NCBI GenBank assembly: GCA_034687125.1 | Contig: JAQGBZ010000202.1 | Span: 1-64,000, forward strand | Source: Neelides folsomi | Taxonomy: Eukaryota > Arthropoda > Collembola > Neelipleona > Neelidae | Direction: 5' to 3' | Length of the DNA: 64,000 nucleotides | Part shown: one piece after another, positions 5,187 through 36,300 of the stretch | Layout of the letters: every line of letters begins with the position of its first letter | Numbering within the stretch: position 1 is the first letter of the stretch | Translations under genes and position numbers: made by a program | Notes under the pieces: model-generated | Told to the model about the DNA's origin: nothing | The model's database searches: none | Seen by the model: only the letters and a program-made list of their open reading frames with translations

Positions 5187-8116
5187 TTATAGGTAGTTTT
5201 CCCAAGTTTTTAAAATGAGATCCGAAGCAACTTCTCCGAGTGCTATACATATAGCATTTGTGTTGCTTGAAATGATTTTTGGCATCACAGAAGCATCGCA
5301 CACTCGGAGTCCTTTAGTTCCAACAACGCGCAATTGAGAATCAACAACAGTGTCAACGCTCCGTGTCCTTCCCATTGCACAAGTTCCAGATGGATGAAAA
5401 AGCGTAAATGAATATGATCTGGCAAAACATTCCCTAAAAATAAAGAGAACTTGGGCATTAATTAACCTAATAATATACTCTATAATAGCAGTTAAAATTT
5501 TATTAATGAGCTTAATTACCAATAGTCAGAACTTCTAAATTCCACATGTTTACAAAGTGGAAACGGTCGCGGATTCAACCGACAACCAACATTTTTGAAT
5601 GTTGTTGTATTTTCAGCAAAATGAAGAGCTTTTTCAAGACCTAAAGAAATAAGCATTTTCGTATTATTTACTAATGTAAGACCTAGTTAGTTAGTTAAGA
5701 CTTTATCTTTAGAATATTAGTTAGTTAACATGTTAAATGTGTACCTTCAACAATAGTCTTCATATCCCTGGTCTTTTCGTAATAATTCGGATTAATAAGT
5801 GGCGATAATTTTGGATTTTTTCCTGCAAGGAGAATTTCCCCTCTACTTTCTGGACGGCTGACAACTTCAATTTAAAAAGAAAAAAATGGTCAATTTGTCG
5901 ATTAAGTATACCATTTAAGATCTAAAGTTAATGATTGAAAGATTAAATTGTCTATGTAGAAGAATAGTAAAAGTTTAGATATTAAATCTCACCAACGGTT
6001 ATTTGAAAAGAATCCTTTCCTTTAGCAGGAAGTAAAAATTCATTTAAAAGCCCATGTTCAACGTTAAAAGCAAATTCAACTTCTTTCTCCGCTCTTCGAT
6101 TGATTGCAGCTCCGAGAAGAATCCATTGAAGATCCGGATGAATTTCTCCACTTTGTTTCTTTGCATGAGAAGTTGCGAGAAACGCTGTCGCTTGAATTCC
6201 CGTGCTTGAAAGGATTCCGCTTCCTTTCTCCACGAATTCGTAAACGGAAGAAGTTGAAACGTCCCTGTTAAATGAATAACCATTTGAAATCCGAATTCAG
6301 TTGAGTAATAAAAATCATTAAAATTATTATTGCCACTTAATTGCATTTATGAAGAGATTTACCTGTCAACATTTAATGTTATCGGTTCGTCTACGATAAA
6401 AGGTCCTATTGGAGCCGTTATATGATCTTGTAGATTTTTCCCAACTGGTAAATCCATCTTGACTTGGATCTTAACATTAATCAATAAGTACTCAATATAT
6501 AACTTTTAGAAATCATATTAAAATTATTCATAAGATTAAATTAAAAATTTACTCCTAATGACTCCAAATGATCTTTTGGTCCAATTCCAGACAGCATAAG
6601 GATTTTGGGTGATCCAATTGCTCCTGCTGAAAGGATAATTTCCTTTGTGGCAAAAGCTCTTTTGACCATACCATGTCTTTCGTATTCAACACCGTAAGCC
6701 TCATTGTCGGCTTCTCTCAATAATACCTTGAGTAGTTTTAGAAGAAGTTAATAATAAGTTTTGACATATTCTCATGAAGCAATTAAGAATTTAAATTATA
6801 TTATTCTTTAAATAAATAGTTAAATTTTTGGTATTAGTGATTAATGATTGTACGTACTTTGTGAACATTGGAAAATTTGTAAATATAAAGTCGCTGTTTG
6901 TTTCTGATAGGCTCTATGAAAGCTTTGTATGTGCTCATTCTCCTTCCGTTTTCTTGAGTATAAGCAATGGTAGCAAAACCTAGAATCCATAACATTGAAA
7001 TTGATTTAAGATATTTTAAATATAAAAATCACTTGTAACTTTAAGTCAGTAAATTAAAGTGTTGTATAAATTTAATTAAAATATATTTATTATAAATATA
7101 TTTTCTATAATACATAATAGTTAATTCTTTTCTGCTTGAAGTTTGAATACTAGGTATAGATTTATCAAATTTGTATCAATGTATCCTACTTTTAAATAAC
7201 TTTATCTTACCTTGTGTATAAGGAGCATTGACATCAATCTCTTCATATCCGAGGTCCTTTCCAGCCCGCACAAAATAATCTGTAGTTTTGTTCTTTGTTA
7301 ACTAAATGGATTTAATAAGGAATCTTCAAGCTTTTAAAACCTGCCAAGCCGGTGTATGGAGGATTTTTAATTTGAAGAAGTCCGTCCCTTCCATGGAACT
7401 TTTCAGTTTCTTGTGAGATTTCGTTCAAAAAATTTTCTGAGCGTTTGAAGAACGGCAAAAGATTGTCAAACTTCCATCGTTCATCTCCCGTTATTTCAGC
7501 CCAAGCTTCATAATCCAATTTATGGCCTCTTGCATATTGCATAAAATTAAGGTTACTCGAACCACCAAGTCCTTTCCCTCGTGGCCAATTCATTCGCTGA
7601 AATTCATTAGAATTCAGGTATTGATTAAAACATTCAAAGAACAAAAGTTTTCTTACTCTTCCGTTCATAGCAAAACAAGAATTGTTTTGTGGGATTGTTT
7701 GAAATTGCCAATCAATTCGTGGGCGATTGAGCATTGCAACAGCCACTCCAGGAATGTAAGTGAGAGGAAATGGCTCACCTCCAGCTTCAAGTAATAAAAC
7801 GTCATAATTTTTGGAAAGATGATTGGCCAAAACAGCTCCAGACGAACCAGCACCAACTGTAACCAATATATATTTTTGGTATAATCATAAGCAAGTCAAT
7901 TGGCTGGTATTAAAGAATCTTACCAATAATGAAGTCAAAAGTTTGTCGAGTATCAAAATAGGAATGGTAATTATCACCCATTCGATCAATATTATCATGC
8001 AAGACTATATTGGTTGTAAGGAGACCTATGAGCCCGTAGACAATGGCGGGGAACCAACCGCCTATGTAATTAAAGAGCCGGTCGTATGCCACCACATACG
8101 GCTCCTCGCCCACCAT
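5187..8116 (-). CDS. GMC-family FAD-dependent oxidoreductase (glucose/choline dehydrogenase-like)
   Basis: Eleven exons on the minus strand: 8116-7924, 7856-7657, 7596-7341, 7279-7211, 6979-6858, 6726-6553, 6469-6363, 6264-5993, 5864-5745, 5640-5520, 5433-5187. They total 1881 nt, or 626 residues, close to the usual 550-650 of the family. The start is the first in-frame ATG after an upstream stop. A hydrophobic segment (about residues 20-42) suggests a signal anchor. Then come the FAD-binding GAGSSG (about 66-71), the LLLEAGG acid, the PRGKGLGGSS flavin loop, and GMC signature 2 (SAGAIGSPKILMLSGIG, about 313). The C-terminal catalytic block is FHPSGTCAMG (His about 558) with SSNTNA (Asn about 604). 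Members oxidise alcohols, sugars or ecdysteroids; the substrate cannot be read from sequence. All key residues are present and there are no breaks. It is divergent to the 10.5 kb gene. Confidence 0.93.
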
Positions 8117-10475: not shown

Positions 10476-13400
10476 ATGACACTCAAGAACAATTTCAAGA
10501 GTCAAGGAACAGTTTTAATATTAGAAAAAGCCCTTGAAGCCTCCGGACAACCAGTGGAGAATCTCAATTTCCTTGAGCATTTCCTCATCACAACTGTGGA
10601 GAGGGTCGGGCGGAAATCCCCGCTTTTCAAATCCAAATTCCTCCTCCGTCGGCTTCCGAGTTATGCTGTAAAGAAATATAAATTTTATTTCGATCTCTTC
10701 CTTTCTTCCTATTAAACTCCAGAATTGAAACTTGGGATGGAGATGTTTTTTGAAGACATTCAGTTTCATAATCTCTTTTGTGGATCTTTAGGGAGCTTTT
10801 GGGAATGCGAACGAGTATGGAGTTGTTTTAGAAGCTTTTCCTTTCCTTCTCAATTCCCCAATGAAAAACTGGCATGGATCGACGTTTGATAAACATGGGA
10901 GTCCCGGATATGGACAAATTGAGATATTTTCTCCAAACAAGACAGAAACGAAAGCCAACGAGAATTTAAACGAGTTTACAATCGAACATGAAAGGGAAGA
11001 GCTAATAAATGAGAAACGAGCTTATAAAAGGTTTTAAAATTTAGTATTTATAATTCATAATATTCCATTCTTATTCTTTATTTATTCTTTAATTTATAAA
11101 TGATTTAACAATTACAATTGTTTATTTCAAATATTGGGTTATATTCTTTAGTCACGAGTTATTTGTCAAATTCGCTGGATTATTTATTGAAGCTGCCAAT
11201 GAAGTAAAGTCAGGGGAGGCAGACGAAGAAAGAGGAAACCGAGAGGAAATTCAGCCGCTTGGTTCTCATTTGCTAATTGACATTAAATGCGAAAACGATA
11301 TCAATAAAATGATCATTCTCAAACAGAATGAAATTCCCCTAAATAAGAAAATGAGAGGAAAAGTTCAAGTGAAGCTCAATTCGTCAAATTCCTTCATTCA
11401 AGTGCGTGTTGGAGATACAAAAGTGACCCTTCGTCCAACCCTCTTTTACCCAAAGGGATATTTTAAAGTTAACTCAAATATTTTGGAGAGAATTCCTTTG
11501 TTTCATCGTTCCATTATTAATATTACGGATGCTTTAAAAAAGGTTTATAAAGAGTGGGCTATAAGTATCTTTCTTTTTTATACGATTGTTTATTTAAAAA
11601 AGAAAGATACTTAAGGCCCACCCTGTATTAAAACATTTTTTTATTTTATAACATATTTATATTAGTTTCATGAATTCAATTATTACCTTATGACGATTTC
11701 AATTATTACCTAATGATTTAATCATGAATGTGTTCCGCATTTGATTTTGTGAATTTTATTTGGTTCAATAGGGATGTTTATTGTTTCCTACAAAATTTGA
11801 AACTGTTTGGACGCTTGGATTTTGGCCTTCAGAATCTCATCTTGTTTCGCTTTACCATCCCTCATCAATTGTTTCTCGAGTTTTTAAAATCTACACAGCA
11901 TTCTGTCTCAATCCTTATGCTGTTTGGGAGGCATTGAATTCAACATTCCTGATCGGCATTCCTGACGAGACTCTTGGGCTTGGGATAGATATGGATACTT
12001 TGTCAAATAATTCCTTCTCCCAAAGCTCCACTTGTCTTTCCTTTGATTTCCTCTTCTCTTCCTTTCTCTTCCACTTGGAGAAATACGAAGAAGTGACCGA
12101 TTGGTCGCCGATCAATTACCAAAAGCGGCTTTTACAACTTTTAAACACAACGGTTGATGCTCAGGAAAAAGGCTACCACTCACATTACTTCACACGGACC
12201 AACGTCCTCAGAGGAACTCTGAAAGGGGAGACATTAAATAGAAAAACCGTTTCCACTTCTTCGGGTTCTTTGCCCAGAACACCCGAAACTCGCCGCCAAT
12301 CGGAAATTGAAGAGGATTCCGACGATGGGGATTTTGGACTCAGATTCGAGAATTTGGCTGTTCGAGGTGACGAAGAATTCTCACCTGAAACGATTTATAA
12401 ATGTATGAATCCGAATCCGATTCCATCGTTTGAATCCGGAGATTCCTCAAGAAGAGAAAGCAAAGAGAAAAGGAATTCAAAACCCAAATCGCTCTCGAGA
12501 ATCTTTGGAACCAAAAGTAAAAAAAGTCGGGCCACTCGGTCCGCTTCGGTGTTAGAAGGAAGGGAAAAGTCAATGACCGACATCGTAAATGATTTCGAAG
12601 AAGTAATTGCTGAACTGAGAAAAGAAGAAAAAATGAAACAGTTTTCCTCCCCGATTGAATTCGCAGAAACGAGTTTTTCCTCTCGAGCTAAGCACCGCGA
12701 AGATCTAAGCAGTGGTAGTAATATTGGGTACAAGGCAAGAAATAGTATTTCATCAGGAGAAAATTCATGTCGCAATAAGAATATCATTACAAATGTGGAA
12801 AATTCAAATTTCACCGACATGTTTGAAGGTGAGAAATGGGACGAAAGCGAAGACACAGTTTATCGGAATATTATTCAAGTCATTTCCGAATCTCCTTTTC
12901 CTGACACCTTCGGAGATCCAGAACTCGTTCATGAGTTTGACAAAACGATTCGGGTTTTATCTTCACAAGCAGAGCTCATTTCCGCCTGGACAGAGATCAT
13001 GTCACAAGATGGAAGTGAAAAATTTGACTTCATTTGCCCTCATGCCTTCAATTCAAGACAAATTGAGTACATTTCAATAGTCATACAAAAAATGTCCCAA
13101 TGTTCTCCGATCTCCGTGAGGAGAGTTGGCGGGATCGGGAGTGGTAATGTAAATGATCAAAAAATGCCATCTTGGGAAATGTGCGGTGACATATTGAGAA
13201 CAGTTTTGCATCAAATGCGGTCAGACCTTGTTTTTAACAATTTGAACCATGTGGAGAGAATCGAACCGAAAAAGAAATTTAGTTTCAAAATCCGAAATAC
13301 CATGTCTTTGAATGAAGGTGTTCCAGGGCCGAGTGGGCGAGGTTTTGGGACAGGAATCAAAAGGAGATTGAGCAAGGGGTTTAGCTTCAATTTAAGACGT

Positions 13401-14669
13401 CCAGCTGACATTTGTAAATCCCATGGGACAGCAACTAGTCAAAGGCCATTTGGAGAAGATGACAATGAAAACTTTGCTCTTGATGACCCGGAAACCGCTG
13501 CCACTCACCGACTCCTTGAATGGCTCTGGCAATTGAAAAACTCAGGAATTGGGAGATTGAGCCAAAAGGCGGAATTGTACATTCAACAGTTGTTTTGGAC
13601 CAGCCATGTCAATTCCTACTTTTTGGAGCAATTCACCGAGGAAAAGATTTTCCACACAATGGCGATGAGGTCGGCGGTGGCTGTGAGTCAAATTATGAGC
13701 GATGTGAAATTTCCGGCTTATGTTCCGCTCCTTGCTGCTTCTAAAAAGGGCTGGGTTTGGGCGGAAATGGCCCTTTCGCTCGCAAATTGGAATGGTGAAA
13801 AGGGGAGTTTGGTCAAGGGGTTAGTGAAAGGCGAGACCGAAATTGAACGAGATCTCCAATTTCCGCTCCACTTTAGCAAGGAGATGACGAATAAATGTGT
13901 GGATTCCCTTGGGAGGAAAAACTTCTCGTCCAACCGAATCAACAGCTTTAAATGGGAAGAGACGGAGGAGTTGGACACCGAAGCCATTACGCTCGCTTTC
14001 CACTCCGAAACCTCAACTCCCTTGGGATGGAATGACTTTGAAGATCCAAGACGTCCCGGGCCGTTCACAATTCCTATTCTCATTTTGTCCCCAGGAAATT
14101 ATTTTAATAGGTGGGAAATGATCCCGGGAAACATTGTACACGTTATGATTCGGCTTCAAAAATTCAACGTAATTCTATCTTTTATTATTTAATTAAGTTA
14201 ACATTTAATTAATTAGCCAATAAACTAATCATTTTATATAATTAAGGAAGGTTTAATTTTCTTATATGTAACATTTACTTATTATAGGTTCTACAAAATA
14301 TTGGATCAATGCTATTTGTCCCACATAGGAAAGTGGCTTTGGGAGAAATTAGAAAATTGAACAAATCACATTCTTTTCCTCCACATGAATTTGATGATAA
14401 TGTCATGTCAAAGACTTTTAAAAGGTTAGTGATATTTTCTTGTTTTTTACTTTAAGTTTACTATTTTGTAATTATTTAACATGAACTTTGCTTAAAGATT
14501 AGCAAGTATGAGAACGACAAAGAACTTTTTGAATACAATCGGATACAAGAGAGATGAAAGACGGTTAAATAAACGCTGCTATACTTGTGATGAAGTTGGA
14601 TGCGAAGATGGCTCTAAAACAACAATTACTAATTTTAGGGGACAGGAGGTCGAGTGCACGAAGCTTTAA
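10476..14669 (+). CDS. Unrecognised 1175-residue protein
   Basis: Six exons: 10476-10667, 10792-11030, 11152-11542, 11772-14168, 14288-14424, 14498-14669. The sum is 3528 nt, and every junction agrees in phase with standard GT-AG borders. The N-terminal third looks globular with aromatic-rich segments (for example NEYGVVLEAFPFLL). The middle (about residues 410-560) is a Ser/Arg/Glu-rich, probably disordered linker with Lys/Ser clusters. The last 450 residues are again globular, with repeated Trp-rich helices (RLLEWLWQL, KKGWVWAEMALSLANW). The C-terminus has a small cysteine cluster, CYTCDEVGC, that might bind a metal. No signal peptide and no clear membrane span are visible, so it is probably intracellular. 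I do not recognise a family. An AATAAA lies at about 14711. The gene converges on the serpin gene 307 bp away. Intron 3 carries a 76-bp mini-transposon. Confidence 0.88.
11550..11625. mobile_element. 76-bp TA-flanked inverted-repeat element (Tc1/mariner-type MITE), copy 1
   Basis: The left end AAGAGTGGGCTATAAGTATC is the near-perfect reverse complement of the right end ending GGCCCACCCTG. It is flanked by TA on both sides (11548-11549 and 11626-11627). The two arms pair over most of the element (TATCTTTCTTTTTT against AAAAAAGAAAGATA). It sits in an intron of the 10.5 kb gene. A sister copy of identical length lies at 60690-60765. TA duplications are the mark of Tc1/mariner transposition. It encodes nothing and is non-autonomous. 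Confidence 0.85.
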
Positions 14670-14976
14670 TCTTGGACAATAAGTGTCAGTATTAGTCTAG
14701 TAGTTTTTAAAATAAAAATTTCCATTTACTGCGTTAAAAATTATTTATTATATCGTTAATTATCCTAATAATTTACTGTATGTTATGCTTAGTTAACTCA
14801 AATGATCAATGAAACAATAAGAAATTGGACATTTTAATACCATATGACATGGACTATACATGGATTATGAATTTATCATCATTTATAGCAAATGCATATT
14901 TTATTCAAAGAAATGGACCTTGAATTCAACCCCTCTCTTGCTATGTATAAAATGAATGAATGAAAATGGCATAGGT
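14670..14976. other. Convergent intergenic region with polyadenylation signals for both genes
   Basis: It holds AATAAA on the + strand at about 14711-14716 (42 bp past the upstream gene's stop). On the - strand an AATAAA corresponds to 14905-14900 (about 72 bp past the serpin stop). Nothing else is seen. Confidence 0.6.
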
Positions 14977-17900
14977 TTAATCTTGATCTTCTTCAGGATT
15001 TGAAGGAGTCAGATCCTCTTCAGGTTCAGCGGTTACTGGTGGTTTGGCAACTGATTCATCGACTGGCTTCTCTCCCTCAACGGTGGAGACAGGAAGGGTG
15101 ATTGGGCCTGGAACAACAGGTTCTACTTTGGGCATCGATGGGTCCATGACTCTTCCAGCAGCCAAAATACCAGAACTGTCATCGAGAACGTAAAAGATGA
15201 AAGGCTTGTCGATTTTAATGGTCGCTGCTCGTTTCTTCTTGTAATTCTTAATTTGGGTGTGACTATGGCTATAATTTGGTCTCTTAGTCTTGTATCTACG
15301 ATCTAAATGGATAAATATATAAAATTAATAATTAAAATAATTGTTATTAACCTAATTAGTGCAAAGGGGTTAAAATAGTGAGTTATTATGTTATTAATAT
15401 TATTTAAAATTATTAATAATTTACCATTTCTTGTGCTCAAAAGCGGAGAAACCTCAACAGCTACATTTTGAACGACTTTAGTGATTTGAACATCTTTTCC
15501 AATTCCTGGGTATTCCATGTCTGGATGAAGAATGTCCAAGCTGTCAAGCTCCGGAAGGATATCTCTATGGGTTGAAACAGAGAAAAGAGGAACCCGGACC
15601 TTCTTCTTCTTTCCCCTCAGCTTGCATTTGATTTCTGAGACTGAAACTTCACTCAAGGATTCTTCCACTTCGTGCAATGAAGAAGGTAAATATGGATTGA
15701 AGATCATAAGCGTCTGTTTTCCATTCTATAAAATACATTAAAAACTCAATGTTAGTAAAATCTTTTCCTATTTCATAACCAAAAATACTCATAATGCAGA
15801 ATAGCGCTTAAATGTTTGACTGAATTTTTAACTCACTCCAAGTGGCACATTGTAAACGGTGGCTCTAATCTGACCAAGATGAGTTTCATAAACTTTTCCG
15901 AAATATTCCATGTAGGTAACATTGACAGAGTCACGTTCGTTGAGCTTAAATGTAGATTGAACCAAACGATTTGTCCTCAACAATCCTTTCAGCTTGAACT
16001 CGACGGCTCCAAGAGTGTTAAAGTTCTTGGACAAATCTAAAAACAATTTTGTTAATTCTTCTCAACTTTGATTACTCACGTTGTATAACCACGAATTATC
16101 TCGATTGCATCTGTATTACATATAACTCTATAACTTTAAAACTTATTGTTTACTAACGATTAGTACATAGTACATATAGTATTTAGTTTACAATGAATTC
16201 TTCCAATAAATAAAGTTTGTTGAATCAATTGTTTACGTACGAGAATTGATGAAGTCTTTCTTTCTCCTAAAAGTAACTCGTTCAAACTCCGTGTCGAAAT
16301 CTTTTATTTTGTCCTCAAACGTAGGCTCAACTTCCACTCCTGATTCCACAATGATTTTGGTCGAATTCTCAATCGTTACGTTTCTCCCGGGGTATGAAAA
16401 AAAAAGAATTTCCTGGAGCCGTTTTTCCCAAACGGCGGGGAAGGTAATGTGTTCGAAAATCCTCCTCCTCGATTTCTCATCGGCTCCTTTGGCAAAAGAA
16501 GCAATGAGACCGGTGAGGGTTAAGGGAGCAGTGACAAAGTTTTTCTCTTCCAACAGTCGCACACGACCGTACAAGTCTTGACCGAATGAATTGATGGAGT
16601 CGGAGAATCCTTTGGCTGCTTGGCTCAGACGAGCTTCTTGGGGTCGCTTGGGCTCAGGAGTTGGGATGAGGACTTCGCCATAGTTGAAAACTCCAACCTT
16701 CGTCTTCTCGTAAATCATGAAAGCGAAGGGGCGGTCCATGAAGAACTTTTGAGCTTTTAAGTTCCGAAACTTTTTGTTTTTGTTCGTGTATTTGTCTCTT
16801 ATTCCTTGATAATTGTCGAAGCGGTTGAAGAACCCGTTTTGCCCAAAGTGGATTGACCCCGACTGAATGACTTGAACTTTGTCCGCAATTGTAAACACGA
16901 GCTAACCAAACATATTAAATTCATGTATTCATTTGAAATTCAATATTACTTAACTTTATTACAATCATAAGATACATCAGATATGTCTGGTACTGTTATA
17001 TGAATGTTGAACAACAGAAGGTTGGCAGTTGAATAAAAAAGAATATAAAAATGTATTTTACTTACGTCGTTCTCAATGTTGATTCTCGGGAAGTTGATAT
17101 TCAACAATTTGGGCGTCATTTGGTCAAAGATGGTGGAAATCTTGAGTGAGTGCAATTTGTCGCTGACTGATTCGAGTCCTGACTTGTTGTCTGGTCGGAT
17201 GAACAACATGTAAGTTCCAATGGACTGAAAATTAAATGAGAAAGATCTCAATTTCACTACTCGAAATAAACTTTCCCTCATTGCATTAACTTTTGTCCTT
17301 ACATCTTTAAGCTTAATTGCAGCAATTGAGGCTTCAAGCTCCTTAATCTCCGTGTAGAGGATATCTCCAGTACAGGAAAACCATCCAGTGTGAGTAACAT
17401 GAGTTTCGTTCAAATAAAACTTATTGTATCTGCTATAGCGTGACTGGCCGAACTGGAAATGTCCATCCCATGACGCCTTCAATGTTAAACTCGAGAGGAA
17501 GACGGTCTTAGTTGTTGGATCGATTTCTTAATCACATAATTAATTGTTCTCAACTTTCTCGTTAACTTACAATACTTTCTTCAACAAATATAATAATACT
17601 TAAATTACATCCAAATACAAGGAAGTAAAATGTTCGTGTTTACTACCATCGTACTACAAGTTGTAAAAATACAATCCTTATGTTGTTCAAATTGTGATAA
17701 TAAACAAACTGAACAGCGTAAAGAAACCAACAATAAGTAAGAAAGAAATTAATTGTGCAAAAAAGTAAAAAAAATTGAGAAATCTTACGATTGGTCAAAT
17801 AAGGGCTGGGTGGGAATCCAGTCACATTTTTGTACTTTGCACTAATCTCATTGAGATCGACAGGGAAGGGTTTTACAACTTCCGTTTCGAGCCCTGTTGG

Positions 17901-18457
17901 GTCCAATTCATCGTCTGTAAAGGCCACACTCACTCGTCGGACTCCGGCCATTTCCTACAAAGGACCATAAAGAAGGATTGAGAGTTTAATTCGCACAGTT
18001 AATTCCAAGCTGAAGGCTTTCTAAAGTGCCAATATCTGAACAGATTCATAATTTTAATCGACAGCATTACGTCTTCCATGAAGGTAATGGCTTCTTTGAA
18101 ATCTTCTCGCAATTTTGTGTGATTCTTTACGAGAGAAGATTTGGTCATGATTAAAGCGTTCACAACGCTGAATGGTGAATAAACAACTTGATGGCCTGGG
18201 ACGACAATGTTCTAGTAGAAATAAATAAAAACTTATTTTTAAAAAACATTAATTTTTTAAAATTTCAAAAATTGATTAATTTATTTTCTAGTATTGTTTT
18301 TAAAAATGAGATAATTTACCTTTGAGAGAATTGAGCCAAGTTCGTGAACGGTGTCAATGAAAACGGAGTTGTTTTTCAGAGGTGCCTCTTCTTCTTCAAA
18401 AGAGGCAAAGACGAGGGTGGCTGAAATGAGTAAGAGATACTGGAGGAGCGAAACCAT
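14977..18457 (-). CDS. Tandem two-domain serpin-like secreted protein
   Basis: Nine minus-strand exons: 18457-18320, 18211-18071, 17954-17789, 17526-17303, 17224-17066, 16901-16241, 16036-15837, 15725-15425, 15302-14977. They total 2316 nt, or 771 residues, with all phases consistent. A signal peptide (residues 1 to about 19) precedes serpin domain 1, which has YSPFSVVNALIM near the N-terminus and ASWDGHF in the middle. It ends in DRPFAFMIYEKTKVGVFNYG (about 332-351). A second serpin fold begins near residue 370 (FGQDLYGRV, FVTAPLTLTGLIASFAKG). It ends in KPFIFYVLDDSSGILAAGRV (about 696-715), followed by a 53-residue Pro/Glu-rich tail. The fusion point lies inside one uninterrupted 661-nt exon. 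Both reactive-loop regions lack the small-residue inhibitory hinge and are rich in Lys, Arg, Tyr and Asn. It is therefore probably non-inhibitory (a family-based inference). An ordinary single-domain serpin has about 400 residues. Confidence 0.9.
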
Positions 18458-21100
18458 CGTGCCGAAGGAGAAAGAGCACTGGACTCAACAAACTCTCGGG
18501 ACGAGCCTTAAGAACTGATGTCATTTCCTATGTAAAAATACAAAAGTGGCCAAACCGGATAAAGTTTGTTCACCCGCCACCATCATCGGCTCATTTTTGA
18601 TCGAGATATGTATTGGGAATTATGAGAAGAATACATTAACCCTTGCTCAGCCTCGGCTTGGAATCAGCCATGGAACTTGTTTTGCTAAGGTGCAGCAAAT
18701 CTGAAGCTCAGATCTTCACATCATCTGTCCATAATCCATAAATTACCTTACGCCACGATCCTCGCAGACCTTTCCAAGAACTTACACAAGAAGATATATA
18801 TCTTATAAATTATTTTAATATTTAAAGATATCATGCTTCAGGGTTTTAGGGATGGATTCATTGAACCAGAAACTTTGATAAGATCTTATATTTTTATAAA
18901 CATTTCTTAAGAATCATATTACGAATTGGCCTTGTCCATCATTTTTACACAGATGCGTTAAGAAATTAAGATTAACTCATTCACACTTTAAAAAAATATA
19001 TTAATAAAAAATTATATTCCAATAAAATAAACAGAGCAAAGCAAAAAAACTTATGTAAAAGTTAATGCAAAATATTTAGAAATTGCGTATGAAGCTTGAG
19101 GGGCTTGGCTGTTAAACAAGTCAGCAAGCAAGTGACATTAAACATTCAAAACTAAAACTAACATGCAAATAAACAAATCATTCCAAGGAAAATTCAAAAT
19201 GCTAGGAAAAGTTTGTTTCCAATAATCCTCCGCTATATTTAAATATAAGCCACATAACTTATAAATGTTTAACAAAGTTTTAAAAGTAGATCATTGATTT
19301 TGAGTGAAGGCGTGAATTCTTGATTAGACAAACTAAATGCCAAAATATATTGCAAATCCTCTCTGTTTTGACATAATACAAGAATATATAGAAAATATAT
19401 AGAGATTCCCATCTGATTCGCAAGCTCAAATTTACGATGTTTGCCAGACTCCAGCAGAATGACATTGACAAAGTTGTAGGAAAATTATACCAAGAACTCT
19501 GAGCTTCTCTTCTACCCAGTTCCTGATATGCATCAACAATTAACTCGTCAATGCTTACAGTTACTCTTAATTGCACCGATTAAGTTGAGCGACTTTAATT
19601 AAAATTTTGGTTAATGAGAAAACTTTATTGGGGCTTCCGTCACTTTCATTCGTGTCATATTAGAATCCTCCGATGGCTCATTTTCCAAGCTAAAACATTA
19701 AACTCCAAAATTATTCTTATACCAACCAACAGAAACTATTACATATTACTTATATAATATACAAAACGAGGTTTATGGTCGCTCACTCTCAGTCAACTTG
19801 AATGGATTGTGAATGGGAATAGAAGAGTGTTGGGAGTGAAGAGTGTTTGGCTAAGTTGTAGGTGGGGATTTGAGGGAATTAGGTCTTTGGAGTTGCATTA
19901 GATAAAGTGTGTCAATTAATCCTCGTCTTCTCTTCTTCTTCCCTCCTTTTCTTTTCACTTCCGCTTGGAATGATTTTCCTCCCTTCACAATTCAACCTCA
20001 ATTCAAAAGCCAGTCGGCCAAAGTGGAGGAGGAGGAGAAAGACAACAAATGGGAAAATAAAAAAGTCTCGCTGAAACCCTCGTCCCATTCACTCAACCCA
20101 ACGTTCAATTTCTCCCCCAAAAATAAAGTTCGAGACTCAATCTGAAGATTTCTCTCGTTCGTCCAGCTATAGATGTTTAAGAAAAGCATAGGAAAACTTA
20201 TGGAGCACAAAGAACTATAGGAGTCCATTATGAGTGAAAGTGCAAACACCCAAAATTAAATAACATTAAATAGAAAAAGCTTGAAGAGAGAACTGAAAGG
20301 ACTTTGATTCTATACCAAAGAAAATCATTAGTTAATCACGGAAATTATGTCTCTCGCTCATGATTCAATTTACGAATTGATGTGCCGAGCGAGAGAGCAG
20401 AAATCTCTTTATGTGTTTTCTCATTTTCATTCATCTTTTACTAAACCTTTACTTCATCTGCTTTTAAATTAAATTATGGAGTTTTCTATCTTTAAACTCG
20501 ATTATCTTTTAAAAGTATACTCTTAGTATAACTAGCGTATTTAATAAAGTATTTATATAATATTCTACTTGAGGATAAAAACAAAAGAAGTAAAAATGTT
20601 AAACGCTTTATAATAGCTACCGACATTTAACTTTGTAAAGATTGAGAGCAATTTACCTTCTGGCATTATTTCTTTATTAAAGCTTCATAAGCTGTTTATA
20701 ATGTAAGTGAAGAAAGATGAAAGGAGTAATGAGTAATGAGAGATTTTGGGAAAACAAGAAAAATGTGCGGTTTAAACACCGCAAGGTTCTTGAGGTTGAG
20801 AAACAGGAGGAAGCGCATGCTTGTATTCAAGACCCAAAACCCGGCCTGCCTCTTCACTTTTCCTCATCTGTGGGGAGTGCGAGGTTCGAGGAGGATTGGG
20901 GTGATTTTGGCAAACCGACCCAAAACATACTTCGACAAGTCAAGACAGTCAAGAACCACAGGAACCTTGAACTTTTAAAATGTAAAGTCCAAAAATTATT
21001 TCCACATCTCTTCCTCTGACAGTTCGATTCCTCGAAGTTCCTCCAATGGTCAATTGTGCATTGAGCCGCCAAAGCCCTTTGTAAACATTCTCCCTCTGGA
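18458..21100. other. Divergent intergenic region upstream of serpin and GPCR genes
   Basis: No supported gene. A 100-codon ATG frame at 20717-21019 ends 81 bp before the GPCR start. It overlaps another open frame on the same strand and is better read as 5' untranslated or upstream sequence. The rest is AT-rich with nothing recognisable. Confidence 0.5.
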
Positions 21101-24100: not shown

Positions 24101-27100
24101 TGGCGGACGTGGGAGTAATGAAATATCTCGATAAGTAATGTGTGAGTTTCAATCAATAAAATATACGGCTCTTCACTTTTTCCCGATTACCGCCAACTCC
24201 TCCTTTTGTGTGGATGGAGCAGGGCCCATGATTAATCTCTCTTCTCTTCAGCATCTCCTTCCGGCGGAGATTAGAGAAACGCCATTGTGAGGAGAGAAAT
24301 AAATATATAGATTGAATCAGGAAAAAACTGGCCCATTAGTCCAAAGCACTATAATTCTTTTGTTATCTCGCTCTCTCTTTGATTGACACGTCGGGATGAA
24401 GAAAAAGATGAGGAAAAAGTAGCGGAAATTCCAGTCGGAAAACTTTCACTTAAGGAAGATCGGAAGAATAAAACTCTATTAGCCAACAGTCTTTTATGGA
24501 CGTTGACAGGAAAAAAAGAGGATATTAAGGGAGTGGAAGAGGATCATAAATGTAATTGAGTAGCGGAGCTTTATATGAAAATGAGGTATTTAATTGTTCA
24601 AACCGGGGGGGGGGGGAACAGAATTGCCCGCGTCTCATTATCTCCCCAACCTCCTTTTCCATCTCCATCAAAGACATTTGAGAACAATGTCTGGTGGTTA
24701 TCTCTATTGATTTCCTCCCCGTAATAGAATCTGATTTTGATATTAGTTGTTGAGCAGAATGGGGAGAGAAAACTTTGGGGAAATGCTAATGGTCTTAAAG
24801 ACTTTAGGAGCCACTGGGAATACTGGGGGGCTTATTATATGTTAAATGCCACCTCGGGTTTCCTCTTCCTTCCTTTGAGAAACGGATGGGAAATCCGGCC
24901 CAACTTTGAGTTCATTTCTACATTTGAAATTCTATATTCCCCTTTCTATATTTTTTCATCCTTATGGAATAAAAACCTTCCCTTTCACCTACTTCCACAA
25001 GATTCCTTTAAAAAATGAGGTTTTTCTGCTTTTCCTCCAAGAGATTTTCTGGTTCATGACTTTTTTCCTATCGAAATTTTTCATTCAAGACAGGCATCTT
25101 TTTTTACTTCCTTCCTTTTTGATACGTTTTTCCAATTAATGTAAGCGACATTTTCATTTCAATCCTCTTCCATATTTAATGTACGCATAAAGATCCTTTT
25201 GATATCAACTCACTCAACTTTCCTTTCTCCCTTTTATGTACATACTTATGTAATGATATGAATCTTCTTTTATGAACCTTTTACAGATTATTAAAACTAT
25301 TACTGAGTGTGTATTATTAAAAGTATTATATGAGTATTATAAGAATATATTATAACTTTAATTTAATTACTTATCTCAACAAACATAATCCTCATGGTCG
25401 ATGCCTCGAATTTCGTAAATGGATGCTGTAACTATAAATTAGCAATGTGAGCCGTTTTCATCGAACCAATTAAAGGGATTTTCTTTGAAGAGCTATCGAT
25501 TAAATAAATAGATTGAGCGAAATGATAAGAAACCCTCTCCACTTTATTACTCGTCGCTATGCACAGGCTGTTGGGTGAAATAAGAGAAAGGCTTAATGAG
25601 AAAGGGCCCTTTGGACCATGAAGGAATTTCAGCAATACCAGAGGGTGTGATTCCCTCAATATTATTTTTGATTGAGTCCAACTCCCCCAAGGGAGGGGTA
25701 AAATACATAACTGGAACCAAAGCCACACACAGCAAACCATCTGAGCTAATAAAGAATAATATTCCCAAAGGGCTCAACCTCCATTCCTTCTCTTAACACT
25801 CCCCGAGTTAAAAAGTAAAATAAAGTTTATTACTCCAGCTCTCGCCAACCTTTGAGTAAGAAAGGAATCAAAGAAATAAAAATTGTGGTGAAAGACAGAG
25901 AATGATCATAACTACCGGATCTGTCTCAAGATGAGGGAATCAAACGTATATTTCAAGATAAATAAATAGAGAATCAATAGCCCAGATTTACACATCATTT
26001 CTTATACTATACTCATCATCACATTTACTCTTCTGAGTTTGAACTATCCAAACTACTCTAGGGATATTAGTACGAGTATATTGATATTGAAGGTTCAATG
26101 AAAGTGACGATATGAGTATACCTATACATACATATATTAAGGAAACGAGTTGGAGAAATGGGCAAAGAGACTGAAGTGAATTATGTGACCCAATCTCCAT
26201 TTCGCCTTGCTAATAGTTTATTCTTGGTTTAAGGATATAAATTCTGGTATACCTAGTACATACTATTATGTATTTATGTTGGGCTTAATGAGAAGTCTTT
26301 TAATCTCCTTTTGTTGGAATAGGTGAGGAATGCGACGGCGTACTTCATTATGAACCTGAGTGCCTGTGACCTCTTGTCCTGCTGCTTCAACTTGCCACTC
26401 GCCGCTTCAATGTTCTGGAACCGCCGATGGGTGTTTGGAGAAAATCTCTGCGTCCTTTCTCCCTTCTTCCGTTATGGGTTGACAGCCGTATCCATCTTCA
26501 CTGTCCTTGCGATTACTCTCAATAGATATGTAATGATCGGACACCCACGAATTTATCCTAGGTTCGACAACCTTATTTGATACTCCCATTAAACATTCTA
26601 TCTTCCATCCATTAGGGTTCCATTTCACTTTGCCAAAAACCACAACTGATCATATTTTATAAGTTTCAAATATGAAATTATTACACCCAAGGTTCACTTT
26701 TAAACCTACATAATATTTTAATACGATAAAATATCAAAAATGAAGATGAAATTACTTAATTTTAAAAGCTCCTGACATAAAGAAGAGTTTTAGTATAACG
26801 CTAACATCGTAAAACCTACATTTTGAAAATGGAGACACTTAAGAAGTTTAAACAAGGATTTATTTTTCTTGGTTTTCGCTTAATGGCCCAAACTAATGGA
26901 CAGTTAATGGGGAAACTGACGAAATGGAACAAAATCCTCCCTCAATACGTCCATCGCATTCAAACTCCCATTTCATATCTTAATAATTAAGGACAATAAA
27001 ATTGAGGAAAAAAAACTGGGGTTTCCTGGAATAAAAGAGAAAAGTAGCAGGTGAAGTGGGCGATAAATCATTTTATTGTGGTTTTAAGTGCCCGGGGAAT

Positions 27101-29389
27101 GAAATACGAGGGGGTTGAAAGACGGGTCATGGATGTTCCCCCCGAGGAGACCTTCGGATCCATTTAGCTATTACGATTATTGTTATTGAGGCTGTCACTC
27201 TTTTCGAATGGGAAAGAGACGTGTAAAATAATACGAGAAGGATCGTTTTATTCCCCAGTGTTTGTGGACCTTGCGGAAAGCAATTATGAATTCAATTCTT
27301 TTTCTCAATAGGCCAATTTGGTCGTGTAGGTCGGGAAAAATAGGCTTTATATATTCAATTCCCCTTTCAATCCCCAAATGGGAATCTTAAGGTTCAGCCT
27401 TTCCCAAGGGTTTTTAGAATAAGTTAGGTTAGGAAAACCCTTCAAAATAATGTCATCGGGCAAGTTAGGTTAAATGGGAGATTTTATCTATATGGAATGA
27501 TAAGCATACTACTACATATAAATACCTAAGTTGGTATCATCATTGTGGGGGTTATACAACTTATTTGTATAATGTATAATGTATGATAAATATGTAATTA
27601 TGTATTGTTGTCATTTATTGTATACTGTAGTATCATATATGTATATGAAAATATTTAATATGACGAGTATAATTAAGTCGATTGATGTTTTGTGTCAATG
27701 GAGTAAAAGTTTGTTTGGATGAGGTGAATGAAAGTGAGGAGTTTGGATTTGGGAAGATCGGAGATCGGTTGAGTTCCAGACGGTTGGCCAAGCGGGACGT
27801 AGGGAATGGTCGTGAGACATTCTCTCACTCAACAACTCCTATGGTTAAAGTCATAGCGGAAGTCGGAGAAAGAGAATTAAGGAAATGCATTCATACTCCA
27901 CGCCCATCCAAATCTAATCCCTTTTCCATTAGGAAAATACCCGTTCTCGACTAAGCCCAGAGAGAGAAATAAAGTTTCTCTTTCCTTTATGGATGGGAGA
28001 CAGGATGAGGAATGGCATTCATCTACTTAACTCTCATCTTCCTTTCCAGGGTCTACCGAACCAAGAATCTCGTCTTTATGATCTTCCTCATCTGGGCTGG
28101 GAACTTCGGGTCGCTCGTTCCGACTCTCCTCGGAGTATGGGGAAGGTTCGGGCTGGATAAGGACATTGGGAGCTGTTCCATTCTTAAAGGGACGAGCGGA
28201 GAGTCACCCAAGAAGATTTTCTTCGTCGTTGCCTTCATCCTTCCCATCCTTGCCATTGTCATCTGTTATTCCCTCATCTTCTTCATTGTAAGGTCTGCAA
28301 GGCTCAACTCGAGGGCAAATGGCCAGGGAATTCAAGATACTCAAACGGAAGACCACGGACATGGTAAGATTGGATTTAATCAAAACCATAGTTGATTTAA
28401 ATTCTTTAAATTCTCTGCATTGAAATTTTGCATGTTACATTGTAAAGAATTATGAAAAATGTCAATTTCAAAGAATATTTATATGAGCGTATAAAATCTA
28501 TGCATATATTAATTTTATAAAATATACCTACACTGATAATATTATATGTGAAAATTATCTAAAAAGCATCCCAACAATACAAAGTATAAAAAGTGTATAT
28601 TTTATGCAGTTTACTTACATAAGTGTCCGAAGAATATTACAAGGACTACAAAAGGATAGGTTTTTATATTTAGTTTACGAGACTATGATGCGATTGTGTC
28701 TCTGTCATCCATTCTACTTGAATAAATGTGAATGAAATTGGAGCGGAAGGGGAAAATAAAATAGACTGCATGCTCATTTGATTATTTAAATATGAATGCG
28801 GTGGGGAAGTTGGACACATTTTGAATGTCATGAAGAAGCTCAATCTTTTATAAAGAAACTTTCCTTGCAATTCAACAACGCTCATCTTTAGGCGCATAAA
28901 TTACATTAGTGAAAAAGCTACTACAATCATATCCTATTATTTTGTAAAATAAAATATAAACATTCCCACGCTAATTTTATTAACATTAAAATATTTCAAT
29001 ATAATATTGCGAATTTGATATTAAATGAAGTGGGTTTATTTTCAGGGGAGATGTTGCGGAAGGAGATGAAGGGGCGCCCTTCAATGGCAGTCATCCACCA
29101 ACGCGGAAAGATGACAAAGAAAGACAAGAAACTGCTGCTGATGATCTTTGTCATTTTCTCAACGTTCGTCACATGTCATTTGCCAATTACGATATTAAAA
29201 GGGCTTGGCAAGGACCGGGAGCCATATGCCCTCAATATCTTCGGAATCCTTCTCCTTTACCTCTCTACTTGTATGAACCCAATCATCTACGTTGTGATGA
29301 GTTCAGAATATCGCCAAGCGTACAAAAGTCTTTTCCTCTGTAAAGCTGAATGGTCGCTCATTCGGAGCAACAACTCAAACAAGACTTAA
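21101..29389 (+). CDS. Rhodopsin-class GPCR, moody/Tre1-like
   Basis: Four exons: 21101-21316, 26323-26561, 28050-28363, 29046-29389. They total 1113 nt, or 370 residues, at the short end for class A receptors. The extracellular N-terminus has Asn sequons (NNS, NET). Seven hydrophobic segments follow: TM1 ends at RCKK, TM2 has FIMNLSACDLLSC, and TM3 ends in NRY (about 139-141) where most class A receptors have DRY. TM4 follows in FMIFLIWAGNFGSLVP and TM5 in FFVVAFILPILAIVI. TM6 is FVTCHLPITILKG and TM7 carries NPIIY (about 334-338). The NRYVMIGHPR block and the FNLPLAAS motif after TM2 match the arthropod moody/Tre1 group, which acts in epithelial barrier formation and cell migration. The extracellular disulfide cysteines (ENLCVL, GSCSIL) are present. 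Intron 1 is 5006 bp and introns 2 and 3 are 1488 and 682 bp. Confidence 0.9.
21317..26322 (+). other. 5 kb first intron of the GPCR gene
   Basis: No second gene is supported. It contains a run of 12 G at 24605-24616 and short frames on both strands (for example 25432-25796) that overlap each other and lack domain or splice support. It may hold enhancers, but nothing specific is readable. Confidence 0.5.
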
Positions 29390-33305: not shown

Positions 33306-36300
33306 ATGGTTGAAGGAAATCTTATACTGGGAAACTACCAACTCTTTTTCTTTATCCTCTTCAATTTTGTGATATCAAGTAAGTTGGGAATTTGTTAATT
33401 AAGGGATTACAAATGACGCGTAGGCGGAGAAAGTAATTAATAACATGTCGGCAGATTGTCGTGATTCTCCCAGCGGGTGTTCTTTGCCTTTGACTCCTCA
33501 CAATGGAAACTTTGAAGTTGAAGGATGCGAAGGTGTAAGAAAAGATCCATTTTTCGGACCATGTTGGAAAGATCCTCATACGAAATATCCAGTTGGACAA
33601 GTAACAATAAAAATCACTCGTCGATTTTTTACCCCTTTCAATCATTAGACATACCTAGATATTTTGTTATCAATTTTTCAAAATTAAATGAAATTTAAAA
33701 AGTTTATACAACTCATTAAATACAGAAATATTGATTAAATATAAACATATTATGTTACCCTTTTATTGTTAGATTGTCAAATATTTCTGCCTTCCTGAAT
33801 TCACCCTTCGAGGTTCAAACCGAATCGAATGTCTCGAGTCTGGATATTGGAACGCTTCCTTTCCCAGATGCTGCCGTCCTAAAAGGGCAACTCCAGCTCC
33901 AATTCAAACTGGTCAACTTGACCTTATGGACCTGAGGGCCAATCAACCGAAAAATAAATTGGAAGTATTCGAAGAAGCGAGAGAAAGGCGGTTCGAAAAA
34001 GTGGCTGAGGATTCGATCTCGTGCCCTCCACTTCAACGGACAAAGAACGTTGAGTTCGAATGCTTAACGCCCGACGGGAGGATCAACAACTGCGAGAACC
34101 CGCCGTTGCCTCCGTACACAGTGGCCCATCTGAAGTGTGCGAGGTATAAAAAAGATTCCATAAGTCACAGGCTAAGCACCCAATGCGTCATTCCCTTGTG
34201 GGACAGAGGAACGGTAATTTATCCCTATGCTCTTTCAGGTACTATAAATCAACTGACCATCTCGCCTATCGCTACCGAAAATGTAAACCCGACGCGACTT
34301 GGAGGTGCAGTTAAAATATACTTAGGACAATAATCATAAAAATGTCCCTCTTTAATCTACTCTTATGACTTATTCAGGAATCTCCTCACTTTTTAACTTT
34401 TCCTCTTCCATGTTTTCGATCCAGTAAATGGCTTATGTTTCATAAATAACGAGCTCAGAATTTCTCGAATTGGGAGAGCTTTCAACACTTTTAAGAAAAA
34501 CTTTTTGCTTTATTTGAATTTTATAAATTTTTCTTATAAAATACATACATAAACGCTATTTACTTTCTCAAAAACTTACTAAGAACCTTAAATATCTGGT
34601 ACACTATATTATCTTTTAAAACTTTGCTAGAAAAATATTATATTTCTTGTATATCCATACGGAATGTCTATTGCTTTTATATGCTGAATTATCTTTCGTC
34701 TTGCGAGTTTATTCACTCACATTCACTTACTAATGTCTTGCGTAAATGTAGTAAGTATCTGCGTAATTTATGACTAGCTTTATTACTTAATAAACTATCT
34801 ATAAATCATTAAATATGCTTACGCGTAAAATAATGACACTCCCTGTTTCGTGTAATCGTGTATGTTTGGTTAAATGGAGAAAGTAGTAATAAAAATTATA
34901 AATACATTCTCCATATTAATGCTTCTTGTAATGAGTTTGATAGGGAGATTGCGATTTCAATAGAATTAACCTTCATACGTAGTAAACTTTGGCAAAAACA
35001 AATATAACTCTTATATAGTAAATATATAAATTATATTAAAATGTATTAATATATCGATGTAAAATTTCAGTACGGAAGGGTCCATAGTATGCGTTCCAGG
35101 TAAATTAAACAAAAAATAAACATTGTTTTCACATTGATTGATTGTTTATCCAATTTCAGAATGTGGCAAATCAGATATTGCTAAGAAGCCTTTGATCACT
35201 CATGGAGAACCCACCGAAAGAGGTCAATGGCCTTGGCATGCAGCTCTTTACGTTCGGGATAAAGGAAACTGGGAGTTCATCTGTGGTGGATCGCTGATTT
35301 CCACACAAGCACTCATCACAGCCGCCCATTGCGTTGTCCTCAACAAGTCCAAACTGGAGAAGGATAGATTGAAAGTTGTTTTGGGGAAGTTCAAGCGTCA
35401 ATATGAAAGGAAAGAATCCGACATGCAAGAGAAAGCAATTCAGCAAATCATCGTCCATCCTAATTATTCTACAGATAATTACGATTCAGACATTGCCATT
35501 CTTGTTCTCGAGTCTCCTGTAAAACTTTCTTTCTACGTTCGTCCTGTCTGCTTCCCTGAAAGTTTCAACTCACTCATTGAGGAATATCAGATCCAAGATG
35601 GGAATTATGGGACAGTAAGATCAATATGAGATTATTATTATAAACCATACGCTTACAATTTATCAAACATTACCAACTTTTTCATAATACTTACCTAAGT
35701 ATTAAAAACTTTTCCCTCGAGACGTTCTCAGTTTTCTTAGTACCCCTTTAGCCATTGCTTTTAAAATGTGTAACGAGTTTGGATATTGAAGTTGAAAAAG
35801 TTTCTCCCCTCAGGATTTTTGACGTCCATTGCATAATAATAGTAAAAAGTGGTCGTGATGATATTTATATGTAAATATATATTTGAATATCCGAAGGTGG
35901 TCGGCTGGGGACTCGACGAGGGTGGGAAACTTGTAGACGATCTTCATATGTGAGTAAACTTTTTTAATCAAACCTTCTTCAAAACCAGGTTTAAACCATT
36001 AATAAAATAAATCTTCGGAATCCCAACATGATGAAGATTTTAGTATTCGTAAAGTTAAAATTTAAATCTGAGGATAAGAAATAAAAACTCGTTAGATAAA
36101 TTAATAATACCTTACAAAAGTTATAATCTTAAAGTAGAGTTATAATCTAAAATTGACGAATCAAAATTTCTAATAATCCATAGGGCTCAACTTCCAGTCG
36201 TTTCTTCCCGAACATGCATTGACTCATTTCAAGAATTCTTCGAAACTCAAGCAAGATACACTAACTTTTGTGCTGGCTATACAAATGGTTTGCCCCTTTC

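Follow-up and report, generated by a model that had tools for sequence, protein, structure and literature searches.

The window analysed here is a 64,000-nucleotide stretch of the genome of the collembolan Neelides folsomi (assembly GCA_034687125.1, contig JAQGBZ010000202.1, positions 1 to 64,000), and its minus strand carries a gene whose predicted product is a single chain of 771 residues with two serpin domains, termed D1 and D2 below. Eight introns, all of them GT-AG, separate nine exons that stay in phase and add up to 2316 nt, which corresponds to 771 amino acids and a stop, and the GC content of the exons (0.40-0.48) exceeds that of the introns (0.12-0.35). The features of this gene, given in window positions, are as follows.

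14977..18457, minus strand: whole gene, coding part, nine exons, encoding the 771-residue two-domain serpin
18457-18320, 18211-18071, 17954-17789, 17526-17303 and 17224-17066, minus strand: exons 1-5
16901-16241, 16036-15837, 15725-15425 and 15302-14977, minus strand: exons 6-9
18404..18457, minus strand: putative signal peptide MVSLLQYLLLISATLVFA (aa 1-18), from the translation read by eye
16656..18403, minus strand, introns included: D1, about aa 19-358, exons 1-6, from Pfam, PDB serpins and hhalign
16725..16901, minus strand: D1 stretch aa 277-335, 59 residues for helix I, strand 5A, hinge and reactive loop; hinge absent
16241..16901, minus strand: fusion exon 6 (661 nt), with the end of D1, the linker and the N-terminal half of D2
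16614..16655, minus strand: linker between the domains, about aa 359-372, its edges set by eye from the profile and hhalign alignments
15139..16613, minus strand, introns included: D2, about aa 373-718, exons 6-9, from Pfam, PDB conserpin and hhalign
15425..15449, minus strand: first part of the D2 reactive loop, SPLLSTRN, which replaces the small-residue hinge
15220..15302, minus strand: second part of the D2 reactive loop, DRRYKTKRPNYSHSHTQIKNYKKKRAAT, long and basic, with a KKKR/A site
14980..15138, minus strand: acidic Pro/Glu-rich C-terminal tail, aa 719-771, pI 4.05
14900..14905, minus strand: AATAAA polyadenylation signal, about 70 nt 3' of the stop

The chain has a calculated mass of 87.6 kDa (with the signal peptide counted and before any glycans), a pI of 8.06, nine N-glycosylation sequons and two cysteines. 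It is probably secreted, as the initial annotation had it, since the N-terminus resembles a signal peptide when judged by eye. Searched by tblastn against the assembly from which it comes (75.1 Mb, 840 contigs), the chain gave nine matches, all of them to the same gene, and no second copy was revealed; because this search also missed the other serpins of the genome, it rules out close copies only. Two collections of viral and prokaryote sequence were also searched, and none of the pattern matches was confirmed, either for the exon 6 frame in viral_contigs (10 matches) or for exon 8 with some intron read-through in genome_contigs (159 matches).

Ten frames of the window were compared with Pfam, and three of them have no match at E 0.01, including a frame of 806 codons (11772-14192, plus strand) that is convergent with the double serpin gene. 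Pfam recognizes the N-terminal exon of a GMC oxidoreductase at 7312-7884 (minus strand), and at 26323-29389 (plus strand) there are rhodopsin-class receptor frames, both of the two tested matching 7tm_1. At 33773-35629 (plus strand), 15 kb from the double serpin gene, Pfam finds a Sushi exon with a trypsin exon further along, and these, if they form one gene, would be reminiscent of a modular serine protease or clotting factor C. That they lie near a serpin gene with a look-alike in beetles that acts as an inhibitor of this kind of protease is probably a coincidence. Elsewhere in the assembly, a mitochondrial contig (G000:C742, 15157 b) carries cox1, identified by Pfam, together with nd2, cox2 and part of atp6, which were named by eye. 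The gene order around cox1 is nd2, cox1, cox2, atp6, with the cox1 and cox2 frames about 30-40 nt apart, a spacing that speaks weakly against insects and crustaceans, since ARAGORN, run with the bacterial code on the stretch around cox1-cox2, found no tRNA anywhere in it.

By profile comparison, both halves of the chain are serpin homologues. The Pfam Serpin family matches the whole chain with an E-value of 2.5e-44, and each half taken separately passes the curated cut-off of 27 for PF00079 (residues 1-365, E 2.4e-15, 57.1 bits; residues 366-771, E 2.5e-29, 103.1 bits). The sole non-serpin match listed up to E 1 is to PAZ in the second half (E 0.13) and falls below its own cut-off. In phmmer searches against PDB chains with E up to 0.1, D1 matches 10 sequences (best 2.8e-8) and D2 matches 15 (best 8.1e-8, conserpin), all of them serpins by name or otherwise known as such. 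The comparison set consisted of 12 other serpin genes of the same genome, spliced with a splice-alignment script from GT-AG rules and homology alone, and a thirteenth model (C624) was left out as it has a single exon only. Nine of the 12, chosen for their canonical look, provided a serpin profile with five stretches of similarity to the chain, which follow one another as N1, C1, C1 end, N2 and C2; with the search space fixed by hand at 20,000, the i-Evalues are strong for C1 (2e-10) and C2 (9e-13), whereas N1, C1 end and N2 are individually weak (13, 2.3 and 0.003). Global hhalign alignment to the same profile gave 98.5% for D1 (E 2.2e-14, 319 columns) and 99.1% for D2 (E 1.5e-17, 330 columns). 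The proposal of two serpin domains in one 771-residue chain is thus borne out by the in-phase exons and by a Pfam Serpin match in each half, and the double serpin has the tandem serpin domains in a single chain by which twin-domain serpins are defined.

Insertion of the reactive loop of a serpin into sheet A is made possible by a hinge of small residues. The Drosophilid consensus for this hinge (positions P17-P8), as given in PMC2770083, was scanned over the last 40% of each domain. The best scores are 4/10 for D1 and 5/10 for D2, and these best windows lie outside the loop, which agrees with the original claim that neither domain carries an inhibitory hinge, although the peptides then quoted as hinges are actually the distal end of the loops. 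Hence the hinge that inhibitory and SPN93-type serpins have is missing from both domains. Nine of the 12 other modelled serpins score 9-10/10, and the remaining three are C365 at 7/10, C342 at 5/10 and C80 at 4/10 (its model is incomplete there), so that the absence of a hinge is not special in this genome. In the C365 serpin (G000:C365:16000-20500) the partial hinge reads ERGSLPYPSS and most of the common intron positions are kept, and the C342 serpin (G000:C342:22500-27500, minus strand) has a long His-rich stretch in open frame ahead of its serpin domain.

The loop region of D1 can be aligned in two ways. In the hhalign and MAFFT alignments, HFGQNGFFNRF-DNYQGI falls on helix I, and strand 5A and the proximal loop are skipped, while BLASTP against D2 aligns the start of the aa 277-335 stretch to strand 5A instead, and yet the hinge is absent in both readings. 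Inspection of this gap by eye for a missed exon gave nothing convincing. In D2, strand 5A is recognizable (ITKVVQNVAVEV) and SPLLSTRNDRRYK stands in the place of the hinge, and the loop that follows, at about 36 residues, is longer than those of the canonical genes in the alignment and contains a KKKR/AAT site after aa 688. From the missing hinges we infer that neither domain can trap proteases.

The origin of the two domains was approached through their introns. In a joint alignment of the 12 genes, the introns common to the multi-intron serpins of this genome lie near columns 119 (phase 0), 197 (phase 1, seven of 12 genes, with C365 having 198 in phase 2), 277 (phase 0, eight of 12), 361 (phase 0, nine of 12) and 424 (phase 1, five of 12, counting C365 at 425), and C200, C269 and C342 have mostly different introns from this set. 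The core introns of the double serpin are at 106/0, 198/1, 278/0 and 343/0 (column/phase) in D1 and at 181/1, 277/0 and 411/1 in D2. With a tolerance of 20 columns all seven match common introns in order and phase, a result that not one of 200,000 random sets reached. This tolerance was picked post hoc, once the positions were known, because gaps in worn regions displace columns. Three of the seven match to within two columns, and the same three-of-seven count holds for eight columns, values that were equalled by 39 and 1,265 of the 200,000 random sets, respectively. The first intron (48/0) was excluded from this test; it resembles 51/0 of the paralogue C364a, and most other models stop short of that region. 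The intron match is read as a sign that the multi-intron serpins of this genome are the lineage from which both halves derive.

A recent internal duplication was considered and set aside. Identity between D1 and D2 is 20% across 196 aligned positions, with E 7e-6 in a single BLASTP comparison. In a tree the two domains join each other at 85/85, a grouping flagged as a meeting of long branches in a tree with one well-supported inner branch out of 11. In the double serpin, no intron occupies any of the common sites closest to the join, namely the loop intron of D1, the intron directly before strand 2A of D2 and an early N-terminal intron like that of C364a, which leaves the fusion exon as a single block of 661 nt. 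Such a pattern would possibly fit a spliced RNA intermediate, and as D2 also lacks the column-361 intron, which is away from the join, scattered simple losses would suffice.

Head-to-tail serpin genes do occur elsewhere in this genome (contig C364 has three modelled ones on its minus strand), and it could be argued that two adjacent genes have been merged in error. This is barely credible here, because the join lies within a single open exon, and in the model D1 has no stop and D2 has neither a start Met nor a signal peptide. The frame of exon 6 is free of stops across the D1-D2 join, an in-frame TAG makes its acceptor and an in-frame TAA lies just past its donor, so that the frame continues only via splicing. 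Met338, about 20 residues ahead of the end of D1, is the last in-frame Met in this exon, and the next one is residue 539, deep within D2, which leaves D2, as modelled, with no independent start or signal peptide. A chance merge of neighbouring genes, which the initial annotation had already discounted from the 661-nt exon, is rejected on the open fusion exon, with all introns in phase, and the absent D2 start. A different concern is that the gene is real and decaying, a pseudogene being lost. The nine canonical genes share 50 conserved positions, at which wear was gauged, and this yardstick favours those genes because it was defined on them. D1 keeps 20 of its 43 aligned positions and D2 keeps 22 of 47, so that about half are gone, compared with 43-50 of 50 in the seven canonical genes without gaps there, 26/50 in C342, 25/47 in C365 and 34/43 in C80. 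Wear of the double serpin is close to, and slightly past, that of C342 and C365, the two most divergent of the others. In the alignment both domains have another residue in place of the conserved strand 3A Asn, and D2 also has the Trp replaced. Divergence has been very fast, with end branches in the tree of 3.13 and 2.79 changes per column, as a decaying gene would show, but the frame is open over 771 codons, all eight GT-AG introns are intact, a start, a stop and an AATAAA signal are present, and exon GC is still higher than intron GC, which makes decay improbable. That the frame is open despite such end branches speaks for selection on the protein.

What the protein might do is suggested mainly by its charge, which at pH 7.2 is about −0.2 for D1, +12.1 for D2 and −10.6 for the tail. 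The earlier description of a basic protein with an acidic tail therefore fits D2 and the tail, whereas D1 is neutral and the chain as a whole only mildly basic. If a cluster is taken as five residues of which four or more are Lys/Arg, D2 has four separate clusters and D1 none, and one of the 12 other serpins has a single cluster; those of D2 also occur outside the loop, at aa 419, 487 and 600-603. A motif of the XBBXBX type is present in the loop regions of both D1 and D2 and, outside this region, also in one of the 12 others. Basic runs are a weak sign of polyanion binding. Charge and basic clusters, with the precedent of OVAX (ovalbumin-related protein X), a serpin with reported heparin binding, nevertheless lead us to infer a polyanion-binding scaffold. 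On balance, we favour the view that the product of the fused serpin genes is non-trapping and is kept as an extracellular scaffold of this type. The probably secreted two-domain protein would have arisen when two complete serpin genes, both from the multi-intron lineage of this genome, were joined. Neither domain keeps the small-residue hinge, and protease trapping would have been lost with it. D2, with a net charge of +12, its four Lys/Arg clusters and its long basic loop, would hold polyanions such as glycosaminoglycans, and the near-neutral D1 and the acidic tail would contact other partners. More tentatively, the twin serpin, with both of its domains non-trapping, may be a bivalent extracellular binding platform whose genes were joined possibly via spliced RNA. 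The original suggestion of a binding or carrier role rather than trapping is a fair guess.

Two other functions have to be weighed against polyanion binding. The SPN93 protein of Tenebrio has the same twin architecture and is described as inhibitory in PMC5691223 and PMC10629668, and with strand 5A of D2 still recognizable the double serpin might likewise remain an inhibitor, acting through an unusual loop. This is very improbable given that both domains fail the hinge consensus, that the strand 3A Asn is replaced in both and the Trp in D2, and that the global alignment of D1 is without strand 5A. The main rival to a polyanion-binding scaffold is a cleavable decoy or pro-protein, in which a protease or proprotein convertase would cut the basic loop of D2 (KKKR/A, KTKR/P) with no loop insertion, and this cut would release a fragment or alter partner binding. 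Such a role would make use of both the basic KKKR/AAT site and the above-canonical length of the loop, and is unlikely in that KKKR is without the P4 Arg preferred by furin and the Lys/Arg clusters outside the loop are unneeded for cleavage.

Serpins are usually treated as single-domain suicide inhibitors. Twin-domain serpins are nonetheless known, such as the 93 kDa SPN93 of Tenebrio molitor (Jiang et al., 2011; PMC5691223, PMC10545863, PMC10629668), both domains of which are reported to complex with proteases of the Toll cascade (PMC5691223, PMC10629668). Like the double serpin, SPN93 has tandem serpin domains in a single chain of similar size (93 versus 87.6 kDa), but both of its domains are inhibitory as described, whereas both hinges are lost here, and the two are likened by description and not by sequence. 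PpSPI3 of Pteromalus puparum also has two intact serpin domains in a single protein, with inhibition inferred by its authors, and differs from the double serpin in that its hinge and cleavage site are said to be SPN93-like (PMC5691223). Hinge residues are absent from 12 of 29 Drosophila serpins, according to PMC2770083, where Spn100A, which has an internal segment of 294 residues, is termed a novel serpin-derived fold; these hinge-less proteins share the missing motif with the double serpin but have a single serpin unit. OVAX is a non-inhibitory egg-white ov-serpin for which heparin binding is reported (PMC3682532), while for the double serpin a like activity is suggested by its basic clusters. 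Among the matches listed from the open-access literature, there was no description of a double serpin with both hinges absent. Twin-domain serpins and hinge-less serpins are each already known, and their combination may be new. If it is maintained with both hinges lost, the double serpin would mean that inhibition can be lost while the twin architecture persists, and it would be a test case for the role of the serpin fold after trapping has been lost.
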